DNA of 42,964 nucleotides, taken from Chloroflexota bacterium. GTDB taxonomy: Bacteria > Chloroflexota > Dehalococcoidia > Dehalococcoidales > RBG-16-60-22. The notes under the pieces were generated by a model. That model worked only from the letters and a program-made list of their open reading frames with translations, ran no database searches and had not been told where the DNA came from. The stretch lies in contig JAHJTL010000038.1 of assembly GCA_018829775.1 (NCBI GenBank), positions 1 through 42,964 on the forward strand, written 5' to 3'. Of this stretch, positions 8,552 to 17,473 are shown one piece after another (within the stretch, counting starts at the first letter, position 1; every line of letters begins with the position of its first letter). The position numbers and the translations under genes were made by a program.

Positions 8552-8857
8552 TCAGGTTAAACCGGGAATTTTGAAATCGCCGGTGAGCCCTCCGAGGTGC
8601 TTGGTCGCCAATTCCTGGGACTTGGCCAGGGCTTCACTGACCGCGGTCAGTACCAGGTCTTGCAGGAGTTCAACGTCTTCCGGATTGACCACCTCTGGTG
8701 ATATTTCGACCGACTGTATTTTTTGCTGCCCGTTCATGGTGACTTTAATGGCACCACCCCCAGAACTGCCTTCGACGGTCAGGCTGCTCAATTCCTCCTG
8801 AGCCTGGGCCAGTTTTGCCTGGAGTTTCTGGGCCTGTTGGAACATGAACTTGTTCAT
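8552..8857 (-). CDS. YbaB/EbfC family nucleoid-associated protein
   Basis: A 101-residue YbaB/EbfC protein: MNKFMFQQAQKLQAKLAQAQEEL helix, then VEGSSGGGAIKVTMNGQQKIQSVEI and DVELLQDLVLTAVSEALAKS. Members form tweezer-like dimers that bind DNA and coat the nucleoid. The start overlaps the dnaX stop by four bases (ATGA), so translation is coupled. It lies in the conserved dnaX-ybaB-recR order. Confidence 0.95.
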   Translation of the reverse strand: MNKFMFQQAQKLQAKLAQAQEELSSLTVEGSSGGGAIKVTMNGQQKIQSVEISPEVVNPEDVELLQDLVLTAVSEALAKSQELATKHLGGLTGDFKIPGLT

Positions 8858-10554
8858 TTCTCCTCCGATTCAATTATCTGGGCACCTATCTTCAGGGCTT
8901 CTTCGATAAGGTGGTTTGCCTCCGGCTCATGGACGCAGCGAACGCGGCAGGCACGACCCAGGAAGTTGCTGATTATCTGCTCCGCTATCTGCTGATTGTC
9001 CGTCTTCTCCATATTTTCCTTGTGCAGCGGGAACTTGAACGACAGGATAATGGTATTATTCTCAACGGCTTTCGGTTTGGCACTTCTGAGCAGGGCGGCG
9101 GCGGGGGTTCGGCTCATGCTGGATGGGGCGTCACGGATGAATTTCAGCCAGTTCAGTTGCAGGTTTTCAATCTCCTCACCACCGGCTTCAGTGGGGATTG
9201 ACGGGGCAGCTTCGGTCGAAGCCGGCGCAGGCGCTGGTTCTAATTCTGATTCTGGTTCCGGTTCCGGTTCACCTTTTTCCTCTTCCGGTTCTGGCGCTGG
9301 GACTGATTCTATTGCAGGCGCCGGTTCTGGTTCAAGCTTCTGCTCCACCGCTGGTTTGCGGGGAAGCTCTTCTTTAGCCGCTGGCTTTTCTGGTGAGAGT
9401 GGTGGCGTTTCTGTGACCACCGGTTTCATCGGCTGGCGTGCTTCAGGTTCTGCCTTTACCATCGGCGGTTCTTTGGCGGAAGGCAGGATTGCGTCCACCA
9501 GCGCAAGCTCCAGCGGCAGCGTGGAATAATTATCGAGGCCGAGGTCAAGCTGCCCGAAGAGCTTTACCGCCTTTAATATCTGAGATAAGGAAGCCTTGCC
9601 GGCCAGTTCCTTCAATTCTTCAATGTCCTCGGCGGGCAGGTCTATCGATTCGGCAGAGCCGGTTTTCACCAGGAGCAGCGCCCTGAGATATGCCACCAGT
9701 TCGCGATTGAACTGGCGCAGGTCAAGGCCATCGCTGTTGATGCCGTTTATGGTCGATACCCCGGCGGTAACATCGTTATTGACAATGTGCCTCACCATCT
9801 CTTTGGCTCGCCAGTCGCCGGTGATGCCCAGGATTGTCTGGGCCTGCATTAAGGTGACTTTTTTACCGTAGTAGGTCGTTAGCTGTTCCAGAAGGTTTTC
9901 CGCGTCTCGCAGGCTGCCGGTAGCGGCCCTGGCGATGAGCTTCAGAGCCTCTGGCTCGATTTTAATGGTCTCTTTCTTGCCGATTTGGGTCAGTTTGGTC
10001 ACCACATCGTTCTGGGATATGCGTCGAAAATCAAAGCGTTGGCAGCGCGACATAATGGTGGGGAGGACTTTATGCACCTCGGTGGTGGCCAGGACAAAGA
10101 TGACATGCGGCGGCGGCTCTTCAAGGGTTTTGAGCAGCGCATTGGACGCACTGGTACTCAGCATGTGTACTTCATCAATGATATAGACCTTGTAGCGTGC
10201 TTGGTTTGGCGCGTAATTGACCCTTTCTCGGAGGTTCCGGATGTTGTCCACGCCGGTATTGCTGGCAGCGTCGATTTCGATGACATCCAGGGCTCTGCCT
10301 TCGGTAGTTGCCTGGCACATCTCACAGGAATTGCAGGGTTCGCCCTTGCCTTCATTGGTGAGACAATTGACTGCCTTGGCGAGAATGCGTCCAGTACTGG
10401 TCTTACCGGTACCGCGAGGTCCGCAGAAAAGGTAGGCATGAGATACGTGGTTGCTAATCAGGGCATTTTGCAGCGTCTTGGTTACCTGTTCCTGGCCGAC
10501 CACTTCGGCCAGGGTCTGCGGACGCCACCGACGGTAAAAGACCTGGGAAGCCAT
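8854..10554 (-). CDS. dnaX: DNA polymerase III subunit gamma/tau
   Basis: A 566-residue clamp-loader ATPase. Walker A is GPRGTGKTS (45-53). A zinc module has Cys at CLTNEGKGEPCNSCEMC, and Walker B and sensor regions are YIIDEVHML and LATTEVHKVLPTIMSRCQRF. The AAA+ core and lid run to about 360. A long Pro/Glu/Ala linker rich in EPEPAP-type repeats follows (about 365-455), then a C-terminal domain for polymerase contact. It loads the sliding clamp at the replication fork. The DNA of the linker is a simple sequence run (about 9220-9330), a possible slippage hotspot. A perfect TATAAT ends seven bases before the ATG, so the mRNA is likely leaderless. No SRP RNA gene is visible upstream. Confidence 0.96.
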   Translation of the reverse strand: MASQVFYRRWRPQTLAEVVGQEQVTKTLQNALISNHVSHAYLFCGPRGTGKTSTGRILAKAVNCLTNEGKGEPCNSCEMCQATTEGRALDVIEIDAASNTGVDNIRNLRERVNYAPNQARYKVYIIDEVHMLSTSASNALLKTLEEPPPHVIFVLATTEVHKVLPTIMSRCQRFDFRRISQNDVVTKLTQIGKKETIKIEPEALKLIARAATGSLRDAENLLEQLTTYYGKKVTLMQAQTILGITGDWRAKEMVRHIVNNDVTAGVSTINGINSDGLDLRQFNRELVAYLRALLLVKTGSAESIDLPAEDIEELKELAGKASLSQILKAVKLFGQLDLGLDNYSTLPLELALVDAILPSAKEPPMVKAEPEARQPMKPVVTETPPLSPEKPAAKEELPRKPAVEQKLEPEPAPAIESVPAPEPEEEKGEPEPEPESELEPAPAPASTEAAPSIPTEAGGEEIENLQLNWLKFIRDAPSSMSRTPAAALLRSAKPKAVENNTIILSFKFPLHKENMEKTDNQQIAEQIISNFLGRACRVRCVHEPEANHLIEEALKIGAQIIESEEK

Positions 10555-10749: not shown

Positions 10750-11928
10750 TCAGGAGAGCAGGGAGGGTATATCTTTGGAGGCATCTTCAATGGCTCTCAG
10801 TCTGACCTCGGTTTCTTCCTGCCGCTTCTTGAATTCAGGGATAAGCTGTGTAGACTGGGTATAGTAAGTCCTCACTTTTTCCACATCGCTTAGCTCGGAC
10901 AGGATGACGGTAACATCGAGCATGCCTCTCTCGCGTGGATAATCGCCGTTTCTGATCAGAGCTTCCGGCGCAATATCCCTCATGTAATCCCCGAGAGCTT
11001 TGACCATATCCATGTTCATCTCTTTGCTTGGTGCCGAGATGAGGTACAGGGCTCGCTTTGAATCCACGGGATTACATTTCAACGACAGCTCACTAATAGC
11101 CTCATCCATAGCCTGGACGCCCTTAAGGGTCTCATCGCCTTTGGCCCTGAAATCGCGCCTTGATTCACGGCGGAACCTGATTAGAGGAATATCTGACTTG
11201 CCGTATCCGATTACCGTCCAGCCAACCAGCGTCTGGATGATATCGCCGGCGTCAAGCACCTTTGAGGCAATGTACTTGGCTTTCTTTTCCTCCCCGGCAC
11301 ACAGCATGTTGTAAAAAGGCTCCGCGATCATGGAATTTATTTTTGAAATATTACTTTTGATCGAAGAATCCTTGCGGACAAATCTCTGGTTATCCACCAG
11401 AAATATAGCATCAGCCACAGAGTAGGACGATTTCAAGCAGGTGGCGGCATTATATATGGTTCTGTCCTCGGTGGTTTCTTCATGCTCAAAGGGAAGAACA
11501 ATGAGGTTGTAAATTGGCTTGTCAGCATAGCGTTCTTTAATGTGCTGTGTCATCACTGAGATTGCCCCGGAACCGGTGCCACCGGCAGCGCTGGCAATAA
11601 ACAGGAATGCGTCTGTCTCAAAGAACCGCTTCGTGGTCCTTATCGCATCGATTACCTTGTCGCCGTCCTCTCGGGCGATTTCAGCGCCGAGTTCATTTAT
11701 TTTACCCACGCCATGGCCGCCGGTCTTACGACTACCGATGAGGATTCTATGCTGGTAGTCCTTTCTGATGTTCGTGAGCCCACTCAGGTCAGCAGCATCG
11801 GCATTGACCGCATAACAACCGGTGATTATCTCAATACCACGCGAGCTTTTTGCCTTCTTATTCAATCGGGCGAACTCATCCGCTATTCGACCACCGCACT
11901 GTCCGAAACCTACAACTACTAGTTTCAT
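10750..11928 (-). CDS. Tubulin/FtsZ-like GTPase, paralogue A
   Basis: A 392-residue member of the tubulin/FtsZ superfamily. T1 is GFGQCGGR (7-14), very like tubulin's GQCGNQ. A VNADAADL element (41-48) corresponds to FtsZ's NTDAQAL, and GHGVG (71-75) to the T3 glycine loop. The signature GGTGSG is at 116-121. A T7-like LDAGDI (225-230) keeps the Asp-x-x-Asp spacing of catalytic FtsZ residues, but the usual Asn before it is Val. These features predict GTP binding and polymerisation with T7-driven hydrolysis. The N-terminus also recalls archaeal CetZ (MKLxxxGxGQxGG). Lengths and motifs do not match canonical division FtsZ, so this is a separate family. It has its own promoter and terminator and diverges from the coiled-coil operon. 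AGAGGTGG precedes the ATG. Confidence 0.85.
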   Translation of the reverse strand: MKLVVVGFGQCGGRIADEFARLNKKAKSSRGIEIITGCYAVNADAADLSGLTNIRKDYQHRILIGSRKTGGHGVGKINELGAEIAREDGDKVIDAIRTTKRFFETDAFLFIASAAGGTGSGAISVMTQHIKERYADKPIYNLIVLPFEHEETTEDRTIYNAATCLKSSYSVADAIFLVDNQRFVRKDSSIKSNISKINSMIAEPFYNMLCAGEEKKAKYIASKVLDAGDIIQTLVGWTVIGYGKSDIPLIRFRRESRRDFRAKGDETLKGVQAMDEAISELSLKCNPVDSKRALYLISAPSKEMNMDMVKALGDYMRDIAPEALIRNGDYPRERGMLDVTVILSELSDVEKVRTYYTQSTQLIPEFKKRQEETEVRLRAIEDASKDIPSLLS

Positions 11929-11962
11929 AACCCACCTCTAAATATAATGATAGAGTTTAGTT

Positions 11963-11992
11963 ATTTTAAGCACACTTATGGTATAATGTCAA
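11963..11992 (-). promoter_or_regulatory. Promoter of tubulin-like gene A
   Basis: Minus strand: perfect -35 TTGACA (11992-11987), 18-base spacer, -10 TAAAAT (11968-11963) followed by AAC. The same hexamers, spacing and flanking TTA/AAC bases occur in front of paralogue B. The predicted leader is about 27 bases. Confidence 0.7.
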
Positions 11993-12122
11993 TCTCTTCA
12001 CCTAAAAGAGCCGCCGATATTCCTGGTAATAAAGTACCTGGCAATAATGTAATAGTGGGCGCATAAAATGAAGCTGGCACTGGGCTGGTCAATGGGTCAT
12101 TTTTTGTTCAGGAAGCCTTATT

Positions 12123-12151
12123 TTCCACAAAAAATGTTGAAAAACTATAAT
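12123..12151 (+). promoter_or_regulatory. Promoter of the coiled-coil operon
   Basis: A perfect -10 TATAAT at 12146-12151 with a weak -35 (TTCCAC, 12123-12128) at 17 bases. A small inverted repeat ATTGT-GTAAA-ACAAT (12164-12178) lies in the predicted leader and could be an operator. A second TATAAT at 11982 overlaps the gene A promoter. Confidence 0.5.
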
Positions 12152-12193
12152 ACCTATATTAGAATTGTGTAAAACAATCTGGTGTGGGGGTTA

Positions 12194-14362
12194 ATGGCAA
12201 GAGAAGCACCATCACAGGAAGTACTGGATGACGCCGGGCACGATATTAGTGACCTGGAAAAGGCAGTTGCCCGAACGGAACAGCTGGGTCGCGCCGCGAT
12301 GGAGGCGACAGAGGCGACTACTCAGGCTGCCCAGAGGGCGATAAAACGCGCGGAGCAGATCAGCCGGGAGGCGAAAGAAGCCGCCGAGGCCGCCGCTAGG
12401 GCAGCTGAAGAGGCGATACAGCGTGCGGAAGAGGTAAACCGGGAAGCTAGAGAAGGCGCCGAAGCAGCCATTAGAGCTGCAGAAGAGGCGATAAAACGAG
12501 CTGAAGAAACTGCTCATACTCCGAAGGAAGCAGCCAAGGCAATTACAAAACGTTTTCAGGAAGCCATCAACCGTGCCGAAGAGATAAGCAAGGAGGCCAT
12601 GGAAGCGGCGGAGGCGGCATATGTTTCCTCAGAGGAAGGGCTGAATCGGGTCAGTGAGATAGGCAGCGAAGCCAAAGAAGTTGCTGAGTCTGCAGCCAAG
12701 ACGGCTAAAGAGGAACTTGATAAAGCTGAAGAAGCTGGTCGGACCGCCAAAGAAGCTGCCGAAGAATCCATCCGGATAGCCAAAGAAGCTGCCGGCAAGG
12801 CAGAGAAAGTCAACCGTGAGGCCAAAGAAGCTGCTGAGGCATCGGTAAAGGAAGCTAGAGAAGCCGTTGCCAAAGCGGACAGAGTCAGCCGGACGACAAA
12901 GGAAACGGCTGAGGCAGCGTCAAAGGCAACTCAGGAAGTAGCACTCAGGGCGGAGAAAATAAGTACCGATGCTAAAGGACTTGCCGAAACATCATTGAGA
13001 ACCTCACAGGAAGCCATCATCCGTGCTGAGGCAATAAGCAAAGATATGAGATTGGCGGCAGATAATTCTGGCAGGGCTTCACGGGAGGCAATAGGCAGAG
13101 CCGAGGTAATAAGCAAGGAAAATAGGGCAGCAATAGATGCGGCCACTATGGCTACCAAAGAGGCTGTTGATGCTGCAATTGCAGTCTCCAGAGAGGCGGC
13201 GGAAACATCGTCCCGGGAGTCCCAGAAAGCGACCAGCCGGGCGGAAGACATAAGAAATGAGATAAAAACAGCGCATGACGAGCTAGTTAGGGCCTTTGAG
13301 GAGGCGATTGACCGTGTGGAGGCGATGAGCAGCGAGACATTGGAGAAAGCTGAGGAAGCGGTCAGGACCACGCGGGAAAGAGCTGAGAAATCAGCCATAG
13401 CCTCAGAAGAGGCGATAAGTCGGATAGAACAAATTAGTCAGGAAGCCAGGGTAACCGCCGAAGCTTCTGCCAAGGCAACCCAAGAAGCCGCTGAGGAGGC
13501 GATTAAAGTTGCCCAGGAAGCTGCTGAGGCATCAACCACTACCTCGCAGGAGGCGATAAGTCGAGCTGAAGATATTGGACGGGAAGCTAGGGAAACCAAC
13601 GAAGCGGCAGCACATGCAGCTCAGGAAGCAATTGAGGAAGCAATGCGTATTGCCAAAGAGGCAGCGGAGGCGGCGACCGCAGCCTCTCAGGAGGCGATAA
13701 TCCGGGCAGAGGCAATCGGCAAAGAAACCAAAGATACGGCAGATGAATCGATCAAAGCAGTCAAAGAAGCTACTAGGTTGGCTACCAGAGTCGCTAGAGA
13801 GGCGGCCGAAACTTCGGTGAAAGCCTTTGAAGAAGCGATAAGCCGGGCAGAGACAATAAGTCAGGGGACAAAAGAGACAACTGAAGAGTCTGCGAAGGCA
13901 GCCAAAGAGGCTACTGAGGCCACGGTACGTGCTGCCAGGGAGGCAACCGACGAGACGACACGGGTTGCCAAAGAGGCAGCGGAAACGGCTATAAAGGCAT
14001 TTGAGCAGGCCATACTCCGTGTTGAGGCAGCCGGTAAGGAAGCAAGGGACGCAGCGGAAACATCATTCGAGGCTTTTGAAAAGGCGATCGGCGAGGTAGA
14101 GGAACCTCGTGAAGAAGAGGAGGTTGCTGAGGTAGCTGGAGAAACTGATGAGGAGACGGCTGAGGCATCACTCAAGGCTTTTGCCCAAGCAATTGGTAGA
14201 GCCAAGGAATCCAATGTGAAGGGAAAATCAAAAGCAGTACGAGGCAAAGGGAAGGAAAAGATAGAGGCGCGTTTGGACTTTCTGGCACGAATGTATGAGA
14301 CCAAGAAAAACGAATCGGACGGTGAAGATAATATCGCGGAGGATGAAGGGACCGGTAAATAA
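12194..14362 (+). CDS. Giant alanine/glutamate-rich coiled-coil protein of tandem 25/22-residue repeats
   Basis: A 722-residue, almost wholly helical protein with no signal peptide or membrane segment. After 22 acidic residues, repeats begin at residue 23. The first twelve are exactly 25 residues each, with the form EAIxRAEEISxEAKEAAEAA plus five more residues. Then come units of 22, 25, 36, 25, 22, 25, 22, 25, 22, 25, 22, 11 and 25 residues, ending at 629. Lengths of 11, 22 and 25 (11+14) point to mixed hendecad/heptad coiled coil. An acidic linker, a basic stretch (KGKSKAVRGKGKEK), an amphipathic helix (IEARLDFLARMYETKK) and an acidic tail follow. I prefer ATG 12194, just after GGGGG; an in-frame GTG at 12182 would add four residues. 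It resembles apolipoprotein/LEA-like or scaffold proteins only in style. Its placement between two tubulin-like genes suggests a filament partner (inference). Confidence 0.85.
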   Translation: MAREAPSQEVLDDAGHDISDLEKAVARTEQLGRAAMEATEATTQAAQRAIKRAEQISREAKEAAEAAARAAEEAIQRAEEVNREAREGAEAAIRAAEEAIKRAEETAHTPKEAAKAITKRFQEAINRAEEISKEAMEAAEAAYVSSEEGLNRVSEIGSEAKEVAESAAKTAKEELDKAEEAGRTAKEAAEESIRIAKEAAGKAEKVNREAKEAAEASVKEAREAVAKADRVSRTTKETAEAASKATQEVALRAEKISTDAKGLAETSLRTSQEAIIRAEAISKDMRLAADNSGRASREAIGRAEVISKENRAAIDAATMATKEAVDAAIAVSREAAETSSRESQKATSRAEDIRNEIKTAHDELVRAFEEAIDRVEAMSSETLEKAEEAVRTTRERAEKSAIASEEAISRIEQISQEARVTAEASAKATQEAAEEAIKVAQEAAEASTTTSQEAISRAEDIGREARETNEAAAHAAQEAIEEAMRIAKEAAEAATAASQEAIIRAEAIGKETKDTADESIKAVKEATRLATRVAREAAETSVKAFEEAISRAETISQGTKETTEESAKAAKEATEATVRAAREATDETTRVAKEAAETAIKAFEQAILRVEAAGKEARDAAETSFEAFEKAIGEVEEPREEEEVAEVAGETDEETAEASLKAFAQAIGRAKESNVKGKSKAVRGKGKEKIEARLDFLARMYETKKNESDGEDNIAEDEGTGK
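12260..14080 (+). repeat. In-gene tandem repeat array, 25/22/11-codon units
   Basis: Twenty-five consecutive units with a shared start pattern (E/K-A-I/V, then Arg-Ala-Glu). The first twelve units are 75 bp. From about residue 406 the units alternate 75 and 66 bp four times. Nucleotide identity between units is modest, so the array is old and kept by protein-level selection rather than recent amplification. Confidence 0.85.
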
Positions 14363-14421
14363 ATCACTCAGAAACCAATCACATATCAGTGTATCAGTAA
14401 TATTAATACAGGAGGTACTCG

Positions 14422-14946
14422 ATGGCGAATCCAAGGGAACAAACCAAGAAGGTTAGTGAGGAAACCGAAGAGGTAGTTGAAGAAACGGTCGAAGCCGTTC
14501 CTGAAGAAGTTGAGCAACCTAGCGCCGAGGTGGAAACACAATCGGTCAAGCCACTTGAAGAGGTATTGGGACAGGCGGAAAGAGCCTACGCTGCTTTTAT
14601 GGAAGCGCAGCGACAGGTGGCCAATGCCTATCGGGCCAATGAGCAACAAATTGCCAAAGCCTACAAGCGTGCCGAGCAGCAGGCGAAGAATGCCTATGAT
14701 GAGGCGATAAAAGAGACGATGGCAGCACGCGATGAAAATGTAGCCGCTGCACTTAAAGCCCGTGATGATGCTATCTCCCAGGCAGAGAGAGCGTTTAAAA
14801 AGGCGAAGGATCAAACGGATAAGCAATGCGAGGAACGGGTAGAGGCGGCCAAGAGCAGGAGGGAAGAAGCGCTTTCTGGAGCCTGGCAACTCCGTGAAGA
14901 GACCATGGACCAGGCCTGGAATATATACGCCAAGCTATCAAGATAA
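14422..14946 (+). CDS. Small coiled-coil partner protein
   Basis: A 174-residue soluble protein. Residues 1-45 are acidic and probably disordered (EETEEVVEETVEAVPEEVEQ). A continuous charged helix follows, in which Ala-Tyr pairs recur at 14, 11 and 11 residues (AYAAFMEAQRQVAN, AYRANEQQIAK, AYKRAEQQAKN, AY), a hendecad pattern like that of the large upstream protein. One Cys occurs near residue 135. It ends WQLREETMDQAWNIYAKLSR. A strong AGGAGG sits 6 bases before the ATG and the gap to the large coiled-coil gene is 59 bases, so the two form an operon. It converges on tubulin-like gene B. No known family is recognised; it may co-assemble with the large protein. Confidence 0.8.
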   Translation: MANPREQTKKVSEETEEVVEETVEAVPEEVEQPSAEVETQSVKPLEEVLGQAERAYAAFMEAQRQVANAYRANEQQIAKAYKRAEQQAKNAYDEAIKETMAARDENVAAALKARDDAISQAERAFKKAKDQTDKQCEERVEAAKSRREEALSGAWQLREETMDQAWNIYAKLSR

Positions 14947-15018
14947 CTACCGTAGTATGGCAATCTAAGTACTTCCTAGTGTGGCTGATACACTTGTGTG
15001 TGATTGGTAATTTATTAG

Positions 15019-16194
15019 TTAGATTAAAGACGGGATATCTTTGAGGGTGACCTCTATTCCCCGGTACTTGTCTTCGATTCCTTCCTGTCTCTTCTTCAGT
15101 GCGGTAATGAGGCTGAGAGTCTTGGTGAAGTAGCTCCTTACCTTTTCCACGTCACTAAGTTCCGATAGGATGACGGTAACATCAAGCATTCCTTTTTCTC
15201 TTGGATAATCACCGCTTCTGATGACCGCCTCGGGGGCAAGGCTCTTGAGGTAGGTACCGAGCTCCTTGATGAGGTCGACGTTCATTTCCTTGGGTGGGGC
15301 GGAAACCAGGTAAAGAGCTCTCTTAGAATCTATGGGGTTGACCTTGAGTGAGAGACCGCTGATCGCTTCGTCCATGGCCTGGGTTCCCTTCTGCGCTTCC
15401 GCGGCCTTGTTTCTAAAATCGCGTGTCCGGGTCATGATTTTCTTGGCCAGTGAAATTTCAGAACGTCCATAACCAATTGCCGTCCATCCGGTCAGTGTCT
15501 GTATAATGTCGCCGGCGTCAAGTATCTTCGCTCCGATGTACTGGGGTTTCTTTTCTTCGCCGGCGCAAAGCAGGTTGTAAAATGGCGCGGTAATGAGGGA
15601 ATTGATTTTGGACAAATTACTCCTGATTGAGGCGTCTTTCATCACGTATCTCTGGTTGTCAACCAGGAAGATGGCGTCGGAGACCAGATAGGCAGATTTC
15701 AGACACGTGGCGGCATTGTATATGGTTCTTTCCTCGGTGGCCTCTTCATGTTCGAAGGGCAGGACTATGAGATTATATACCGGCTTATCCACATAGCGCT
15801 CTTTGATAAGTTGAGTGATAACGGGAAGCGCGCCGGAGCCAGTACCCCCGGCTGCACCGGCTATCAGCAGAAACGCGTCTGCTTCCACGAAGCGTTTGCT
15901 GGTTCGTATCGTTTCAATAATCTTATCGCCGTCCTCTTTGGCAATCTCAGCGCCAAGCTCGTTAATCTTGCCGACACCGTGTCCGCCAGTTTTTCGGCCA
16001 CCGATGAGGATGCGATGCTGATAATCTGGTCTAATGCCAGTCAGGCCACTGAGGTCGGCAACATCGGTATTAACGGCATAGGCGTTGGCGATGATATCAA
16101 TACCACGTTGGACGTGCGCCTTACGGTTTAATCGGGAAAATTCATCAGCAATTCGACCGCCACACTGTCCAAAACCAACTATAATTAATTTCAT
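15019..16194 (-). CDS. Tubulin/FtsZ-like GTPase, paralogue B
   Basis: A 391-residue paralogue of the GTPase at 10750-11928, co-linear without gaps through at least the first 250 residues and about 70% identical by eye. GFGQCGGR (7-14), VNTDVADL (41-48; closer to FtsZ's NTD than paralogue A), GHGVG (71-75), GGTGSG (116-121) and LDAGDI (225-230) are all kept. Thus both copies look catalytically competent. Divergence concentrates at about 250-270 and in the C-terminal helix after about 350, where partners of tubulin-type proteins often bind. It converges on the coiled-coil operon. The promoter is a near copy of that of A. AAGGT precedes the ATG. The pair may form mixed or two-strand filaments (inference). 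Confidence 0.85.
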   Translation of the reverse strand: MKLIIVGFGQCGGRIADEFSRLNRKAHVQRGIDIIANAYAVNTDVADLSGLTGIRPDYQHRILIGGRKTGGHGVGKINELGAEIAKEDGDKIIETIRTSKRFVEADAFLLIAGAAGGTGSGALPVITQLIKERYVDKPVYNLIVLPFEHEEATEERTIYNAATCLKSAYLVSDAIFLVDNQRYVMKDASIRSNLSKINSLITAPFYNLLCAGEEKKPQYIGAKILDAGDIIQTLTGWTAIGYGRSEISLAKKIMTRTRDFRNKAAEAQKGTQAMDEAISGLSLKVNPIDSKRALYLVSAPPKEMNVDLIKELGTYLKSLAPEAVIRSGDYPREKGMLDVTVILSELSDVEKVRSYFTKTLSLITALKKRQEGIEDKYRGIEVTLKDIPSLI

Positions 16195-16221
16195 TTTTTA
16201 CCTTATTTTTTAATTTGTGTT

Positions 16222-16251
16222 ATTTTAGGCATTATTTCTATGTAATGTCAA
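16222..16251 (-). promoter_or_regulatory. Promoter of tubulin-like gene B
   Basis: Minus strand: TTGACA (16251-16246), 18 bases, TAAAAT (16227-16222) followed by AAC, matching the promoter of paralogue A in both boxes, spacing and edges while the spacer differs. The predicted leader is about 20 bases. Confidence 0.7.

Positions 16252-16432: not shown

Positions 16433-17473
<1,041 letters not shown>

Follow-up and report, generated by a model that had tools for sequence, protein, structure and literature searches.

CetZ-like GTPases and a Linked Pair of Coiled-Coil Genes in Dehalococcoidia

Among the tubulin-superfamily GTPases of bacteria, BtubA and BtubB of Prosthecobacter form a pair that comes with a dedicated partner gene, that of BtubC. 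The related CetZ proteins have been described as archaea-specific (PMC9856176). CetZ-like sequences of Chloroflexota were noted by Santana-Molina et al. (2023; PMC9871819), but the passages of that paper considered here do not describe coiled-coil neighbors, the B-type clade defined below, the tail peptide or a wall-less distribution. Here we analyze a locus on contig JAHJTL010000038.1 (C38 in our set) of a wall-less Dehalococcoidia genome of the phylum Chloroflexota (assembly GCA_018829775.1; 2.16 Mb, 96% complete); the whole contig stretch of 42,964 nucleotides is referred to as the window. Two GTPase genes, A and B, lie on one strand and enclose two coiled-coil genes, C1 and C2, on the other, in the order dnaX (8854-10554), A, C1, C2, B, gap (16433-17452). 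This is the arrangement given by the initial annotation, made from the sequence alone, which estimated A and B to be about 70% identical; the measured value is 73%. Comparison with relatives identifies both GTPases as CetZ-like and ties one of them, GTPase B, to the coiled-coil genes. We infer that the GTPase and the coil proteins form a cytoskeleton.

GTPases A and B and their family

GTPase A (10750-11928, minus strand; 392 aa) and GTPase B (15019-16194, minus strand; 391 aa) match Pfam Tubulin (PF00091; E 6e-33 and 2e-33, scores of 115 and 117 bits, cut-off 33) and CetZ_C (PF21011; E 2e-16 and 3e-17, scores of 60 and 63 bits, cut-off 21.6). The Pfam tubulin C-terminal domain gave no match in either protein at E up to 0.1, its place being taken by CetZ_C, and with scores of only 50 and 63 bits both miss the NCBIfam ftsZ equivalog cut-off of 295 bits. 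The third of the three Pfam Tubulin genes in the genome is a canonical FtsZ, encoded in an ftsA-ftsZ pair on another contig, in line with the earlier view that neither GTPase looks like the canonical division protein. In a sequence search against solved structures, CetZ1 and CetZ2 of Haloferax were the best matches (E 9e-46 and 2e-29). Likewise, the AlphaFold2 model of GTPase B (mean predicted local distance difference test score, pLDDT, 88) is nearest to CetZ2 (Z 44.5, root-mean-square deviation 1.7 over 331 residues) and CetZ1 (Z 44.2), followed by FtsZ (Z about 35) and bacterial tubulin (Z 33).

Both proteins keep the T1 (GQCGG) and T4 (GGTGSG) motifs and the T7 acids D226 and D229, which bears out the initial annotation of intact GTP motifs with a tubulin-like GQCG in T1. 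As both acids are invariant across a set of 43 relatives, and D229 aligns with the T7 residue E218 of CetZ1, A and B look catalytically able. In a maximum likelihood tree (quick search, with support from the Shimodaira-Hasegawa-like approximate likelihood ratio test, SH-aLRT, only), the window GTPases belong to a group made up of Dehalococcoidia alone, which branches outside the clade of archaeal CetZs (SH-aLRT 100, long branch of 2.63). The tree agrees with a CetZ-like identity but does not place them among the archaeal CetZs, and "CetZ-like" is therefore the safe name. Their named near relatives are metagenome assemblies of Dehalococcoidia, the few other labels looking like binning errors.

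At its C-terminus GTPase B carries the peptide KDIPSLI (15022-15042, minus strand), in which P388 is 99% conserved after a variable linker, and GTPase A carries the corresponding peptide KDIPSLLS (10753-10776, minus strand). An [ILV]P[ST]L-type terminal peptide is found in 128 of 144 distinct Dehalococcoidia GTPases, 93 of which end in DIPSL[LI]. The FtsZ of the host genome has the peptide LDVPSFLRR, and haloarchaeal CetZs end in ELDxLF-type peptides. By analogy, KDIPSLL is probably an adaptor-docking peptide; its likeness to the FtsZ tail is drawn from the genome's own FtsZ and general knowledge, a search of the open-access literature for the FtsZ tail sequence having found no paper.

Other GTPases of the class differ from this pattern. 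Seven loci (L111-L117, in genomes G443, G386, G367, G374, G168, G445 and G342; L and G numbers denote our loci and genomes) encode a second, shorter CetZ type of 352-377 aa with GQAGG, CetZ_C matches down to E 1e-40 and no DIPSLL tail; those included in the tree cluster with the CetZs of archaea, and this lineage is possibly a separate transfer. The deepest branch of the Dehalococcoidia set consists of two divergent GTPases (L055:5764 and L104:5720) with GQCGCN and the tail LPTLD.

The B-C2-C1 unit

When GTPases were classed by the tree as B-type (the clade of GTPase B, SH-aLRT 100) or other-type, and linkage was scored wherever the downstream sequence sufficed, a convergent C2 or C1 gene lay directly downstream of 49 of 51 B-type genes and of none of 76 other-type genes. 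In five apparent cases of an other-type gene with a downstream coil, a B gene sits in between. Five further B-type genes fit the linkage (L177, L179, L182, L188 and L190), three of them fully independent, as L182 and L188 are organisms already counted. Of the two B-type genes without a coil neighbor, one is on a probably chimeric contig with a Syntrophaceae label (L066), and the other (L072) is a genuine exception, in which DUF1464 and radical-SAM genes stand in for the coil. The residues that separate B-type from other GTPases lie mostly in the C-terminal helix (F356, I360, G372), which is a plausible docking surface.

Across the 77 named loci compared, the gene order gap - B - C2 - C1 - A - dnaX was encountered repeatedly. 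The initial annotation had named this four-gene order in relatives as a check; it recurs in dozens of related contigs and is therefore not chance. Variants include gap - A - B - C2 - C1 - dnaX (L057, L076, L083) and a single B with C2 and C1. The unit also persists away from the gap-dnaX locus (L084, L100, L106, L107, L150, L151, L154, L166). At one such locus (L150), in a Dehalococcoides-like genome of 1.5 Mb with 27 reductive dehalogenase matches (G032), a C1 of 441 aa adjoins B. In Dehalogenimonas-like genomes (G069, G112, G144) the unit is kept, with the other-type copies tens to hundreds of kb away. We therefore take the module to consist of B, C1 and usually C2, with A as a frequent neighbor. 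The earlier suggestion of a dedicated module of paired GTPases and scaffold proteins is thus supported in part, with B alone as the dedicated partner of the coils.

The coding sequence of C1 starts at 12182 or 12194; the ATG at 12194 gives a coiled-coil rod of about 722 aa with an acidic tail (12194-14362, plus strand). Its homologs range from about 425 to 900 aa but share conserved ends, with FEKAVARAEQLSRAA close to the start and KIEARLDFLARMYEAKK close to the acidic C-terminus. The signature near the C-terminus (K-I-E-A-R-L-D-F-L-A-R-M-Y-E-T-K-K; 14258-14308, plus strand) is present in 34 C1 relatives, and also in the divergent C1 of the Dehalococcoides-like genome (L150). C1 had been described as a hendecad coiled coil. 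However, C1 matches itself best at an offset of 25 residues, 11 being only a sub-period, and its hydrophobic period of 3.59, like the 3.57-3.59 of the 13 homologs tested, lies between the heptad (3.50) and the hendecad (3.67) values; the plain hendecad label was dropped accordingly. The 25-residue repeats span about 12260-14060 (plus strand), and their signal is weak in the most divergent C1 (L150).

C2 (14422-14946, plus strand; 174 aa) is predicted to have a disordered acidic N-terminus followed by a 130-residue helix, modeled as a single helix from residue 44 to 173 with pLDDT mostly above 93. An alignment of 20 sequences shows the conserved motifs P-L-x-E-V-L-x-Q-A-E-x-A-Y-A-A-Y and Q-A-W-x-I-Y-x-K. 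Neither C1 nor C2 has a significant match in Pfam or NCBIfam. At 0.15 nm per helical residue, fully helical rods could measure about 90 nm (C1) and about 20 nm (C2).

A C2 homolog is also encoded without a B-type GTPase in G436 (L157:6018-7681), followed by a coiled-coil protein whose start is DivIVA-like by eye, with no Pfam match; C2 matches occur in G278, G292 and G416 as well. This suggests that C2 can work outside the CetZ module. Three Dehalogenimonas-like genomes (G078, G222, G299; L173-L175) hold a single divergent CetZ-like gene without the DIPSLL tail and no B-type gene was found in them, an apparent module loss. Other-type CetZ-like GTPases have convergent neighbors of their own: the same kind of gene in three genera (L158, L161, L163), which at the one locus tested, L158, matches Terminase_6C, and a response-regulator/HD-type signaling protein in two genomes (L185 in G372, L186 in G420). 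Elsewhere in the window, an open reading frame (ORF) at 552-1481 resembles FRG-domain proteins by eye.

The initial annotation also pointed to a shared style of regulation, which the promoters support. GTPase B (16222-16251, minus strand) and GTPase A (11963-11992, minus strand) are each preceded by TTGACA-N18-TAAAAT, matching the consensus at 11 of 12 positions. Of 126 GTPase genes, 77 have a site of this kind in the preceding 160 bases (32/48 B-type, 45/78 other-type), versus 5 of 299 control ORFs, a control set that includes operon-internal genes and spurious ORFs. Such near-consensus promoters suggest that the genes are highly expressed.

Wall-less hosts and possible functions

Genome content was assessed by family searches. 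Among 301 Chloroflexota genomes CetZ_C was detected in the class Dehalococcoidia alone, where 35 of 148 genomes carry it, 66 have a strong MreB match (E <1e-90) and 67 a penicillin-binding transpeptidase. None of the 35 CetZ_C genomes has MreB or the transpeptidase (Fisher p about 1e-11, a value that exaggerates the independence of the genomes, the wall having probably been lost once). A published survey traces the loss of wall-synthesis genes to the ancestor of Dehalococcoidales and SAR202; it describes Dehalococcoides mccartyi as lacking peptidoglycan and having an S-layer-like envelope (PMC10608941).

The reading we favor over the others, though we rate it only as likely as not, is that the locus encodes a bacterial CetZ-type cytoskeleton, in which GTP-driven filaments with coiled-coil crosslinkers or spacers shape cells without peptidoglycan. 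With GTP bound, A and B would polymerize head-to-tail, each by itself or together as co-polymers, into protofilaments of the tubulin/CetZ kind, with GTP being hydrolyzed via the T7 acid of the next subunit. The KDIPSLL peptide on its flexible linker may dock an adaptor in the style of the FtsZ tail, with C1, C2 or FtsA as candidates. As dedicated partners of GTPase B, C1 and C2 might bundle its filaments, space them or tether them to the envelope, and the system would organize the shape or the envelope assembly of cells lacking both peptidoglycan and MreB. An evolutionary version, that FtsZ-like-tail-anchored CetZ filaments crosslinked by dedicated rods replaced MreB and peptidoglycan as a wall-independent shape system after wall loss in Dehalococcoidia, is put forward tentatively, and we lean against it.

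Several observations weigh against such a cytoskeleton. GTPase A accompanies the unit in many Dehalococcoidales, yet in others, e.g., the Dehalogenimonas-like genomes, the two are not linked, and the "twin GTPases flanking" arrangement is therefore lineage-specific. C2 was not found in the Dehalococcoides-like and Dehalogenimonas-like genomes, and in one genus it is present without a B-type GTPase. Because the wall was probably lost in a single event, common ancestry confounds the wall-less link, and as 47 of the 82 Dehalococcoidia without MreB have no CetZ_C, CetZ is not required for wall-less life. Finally, what sequence, predicted fold and gene order demonstrate is a CetZ-like fold, intact GTPase motifs, a conserved tail, the B-C2-C1 unit and a restriction to wall-less genomes, whereas polymerization, GTPase-coil binding and the role in the cell are steps that we infer.

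Alternatively, A and B could build an obligate mixed filament like that of BtubA/BtubB, in which the coils would play the part of microtubule-associated proteins. The tandem A-B order (in the three variant loci above) agrees with this, as does the presence of at least one other-type gene in every classed genome with a B-type gene (G000, G025, G029, G032, G033, G040, G069, G112, G144, G152, G176, G334). However, several genomes have A and B at unlinked loci, G120 and G207 have other-type genes without B, and with the key GTPase residues kept in both neither looks like a dead partner; we regard a mixed filament as unlikely, if worth keeping in mind. The resemblance of KDIPSLL to the tail of the genome's own FtsZ, together with the presence of FtsA and the failure to find SepF in the host genome, would fit an auxiliary division system, a second ring of B, C1 and C2 tied to FtsZ/FtsA via the FtsZ-like tail. 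Yet a complete ftsA-ftsZ pair is located elsewhere in the genome, many relatives divide without the module, and known CetZ paralogs affect shape and motility but not division, making this quite improbable.

A role of the GTPases as scaffold for a metabolic or surface assembly, as has been proposed for some archaeal CetZs found near type IV pili and biosynthesis genes (Brown and Duggin, PMC9856176), might be read from the frequent position of the locus between gap/eno and dnaX; since these neighbors are ordinary housekeeping genes, and the unit is also present at sites distant from them, we give this little credence. A tubulin-superfamily GTPase with partner genes is likewise a feature of TubZ-like DNA segregation systems, but such a function is highly improbable for a chromosomal contig whose three intergenic regions hold no direct repeats, where the genes between the GTPases encode coiled coils and no DNA-binding partner, and where CetZ and FtsZ structures outrank TubZ in the fold comparison.

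Relation to known systems

In the open-access literature on Dehalococcoides with tubulin, coiled coils or a cytoskeleton, nothing was found on these genes beyond one sentence of PMC9871819, and the bacterial CetZ members have only a passing mention in the papers retrieved. The proposed bacterial cytoskeleton, in which one GTPase and the two coiled-coil genes are inherited together over much of the class, looks undescribed. If the CetZ-type cytoskeleton proposed here is correct, a CetZ-like GTPase with rod partners in wall-less bacteria would be a second, bacterial setting for CetZ biology, and would hint at how peptidoglycan-free cells, including culturable organohalide-respiring genera, hold their shape. 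C1 and C2 are directly testable candidates for CetZ partner proteins.

The window GTPases resemble FtsZ in their GTPase fold and in the sequence of the peptide at their end, which follows the pattern D-[IV]-P-x-[FL]-L, but they score 50-63 bits against the required 295 and have no ftsA neighbor. Like BtubA/BtubB they are paired bacterial GTPases with dedicated partner genes; in contrast to that pair, they have no Pfam tubulin C-terminal match and a fold similarity of only Z 33, and the partners are coiled-coil rods. The likeness to CetZ1 and CetZ2 of Haloferax volcanii extends to the Tubulin and CetZ_C domains, the predicted fold (Z 44.2 and 44.5), an equivalent T7 acid, several paralogs per genome, and a tail that in haloarchaeal CetZs is also a short conserved hydrophobic peptide. 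The proteins described here differ from Haloferax CetZ in their bacterial host, an identity of about 30%, a position outside the archaeal clade, the KDIPSLL tail and the dedicated coiled-coil partner genes.

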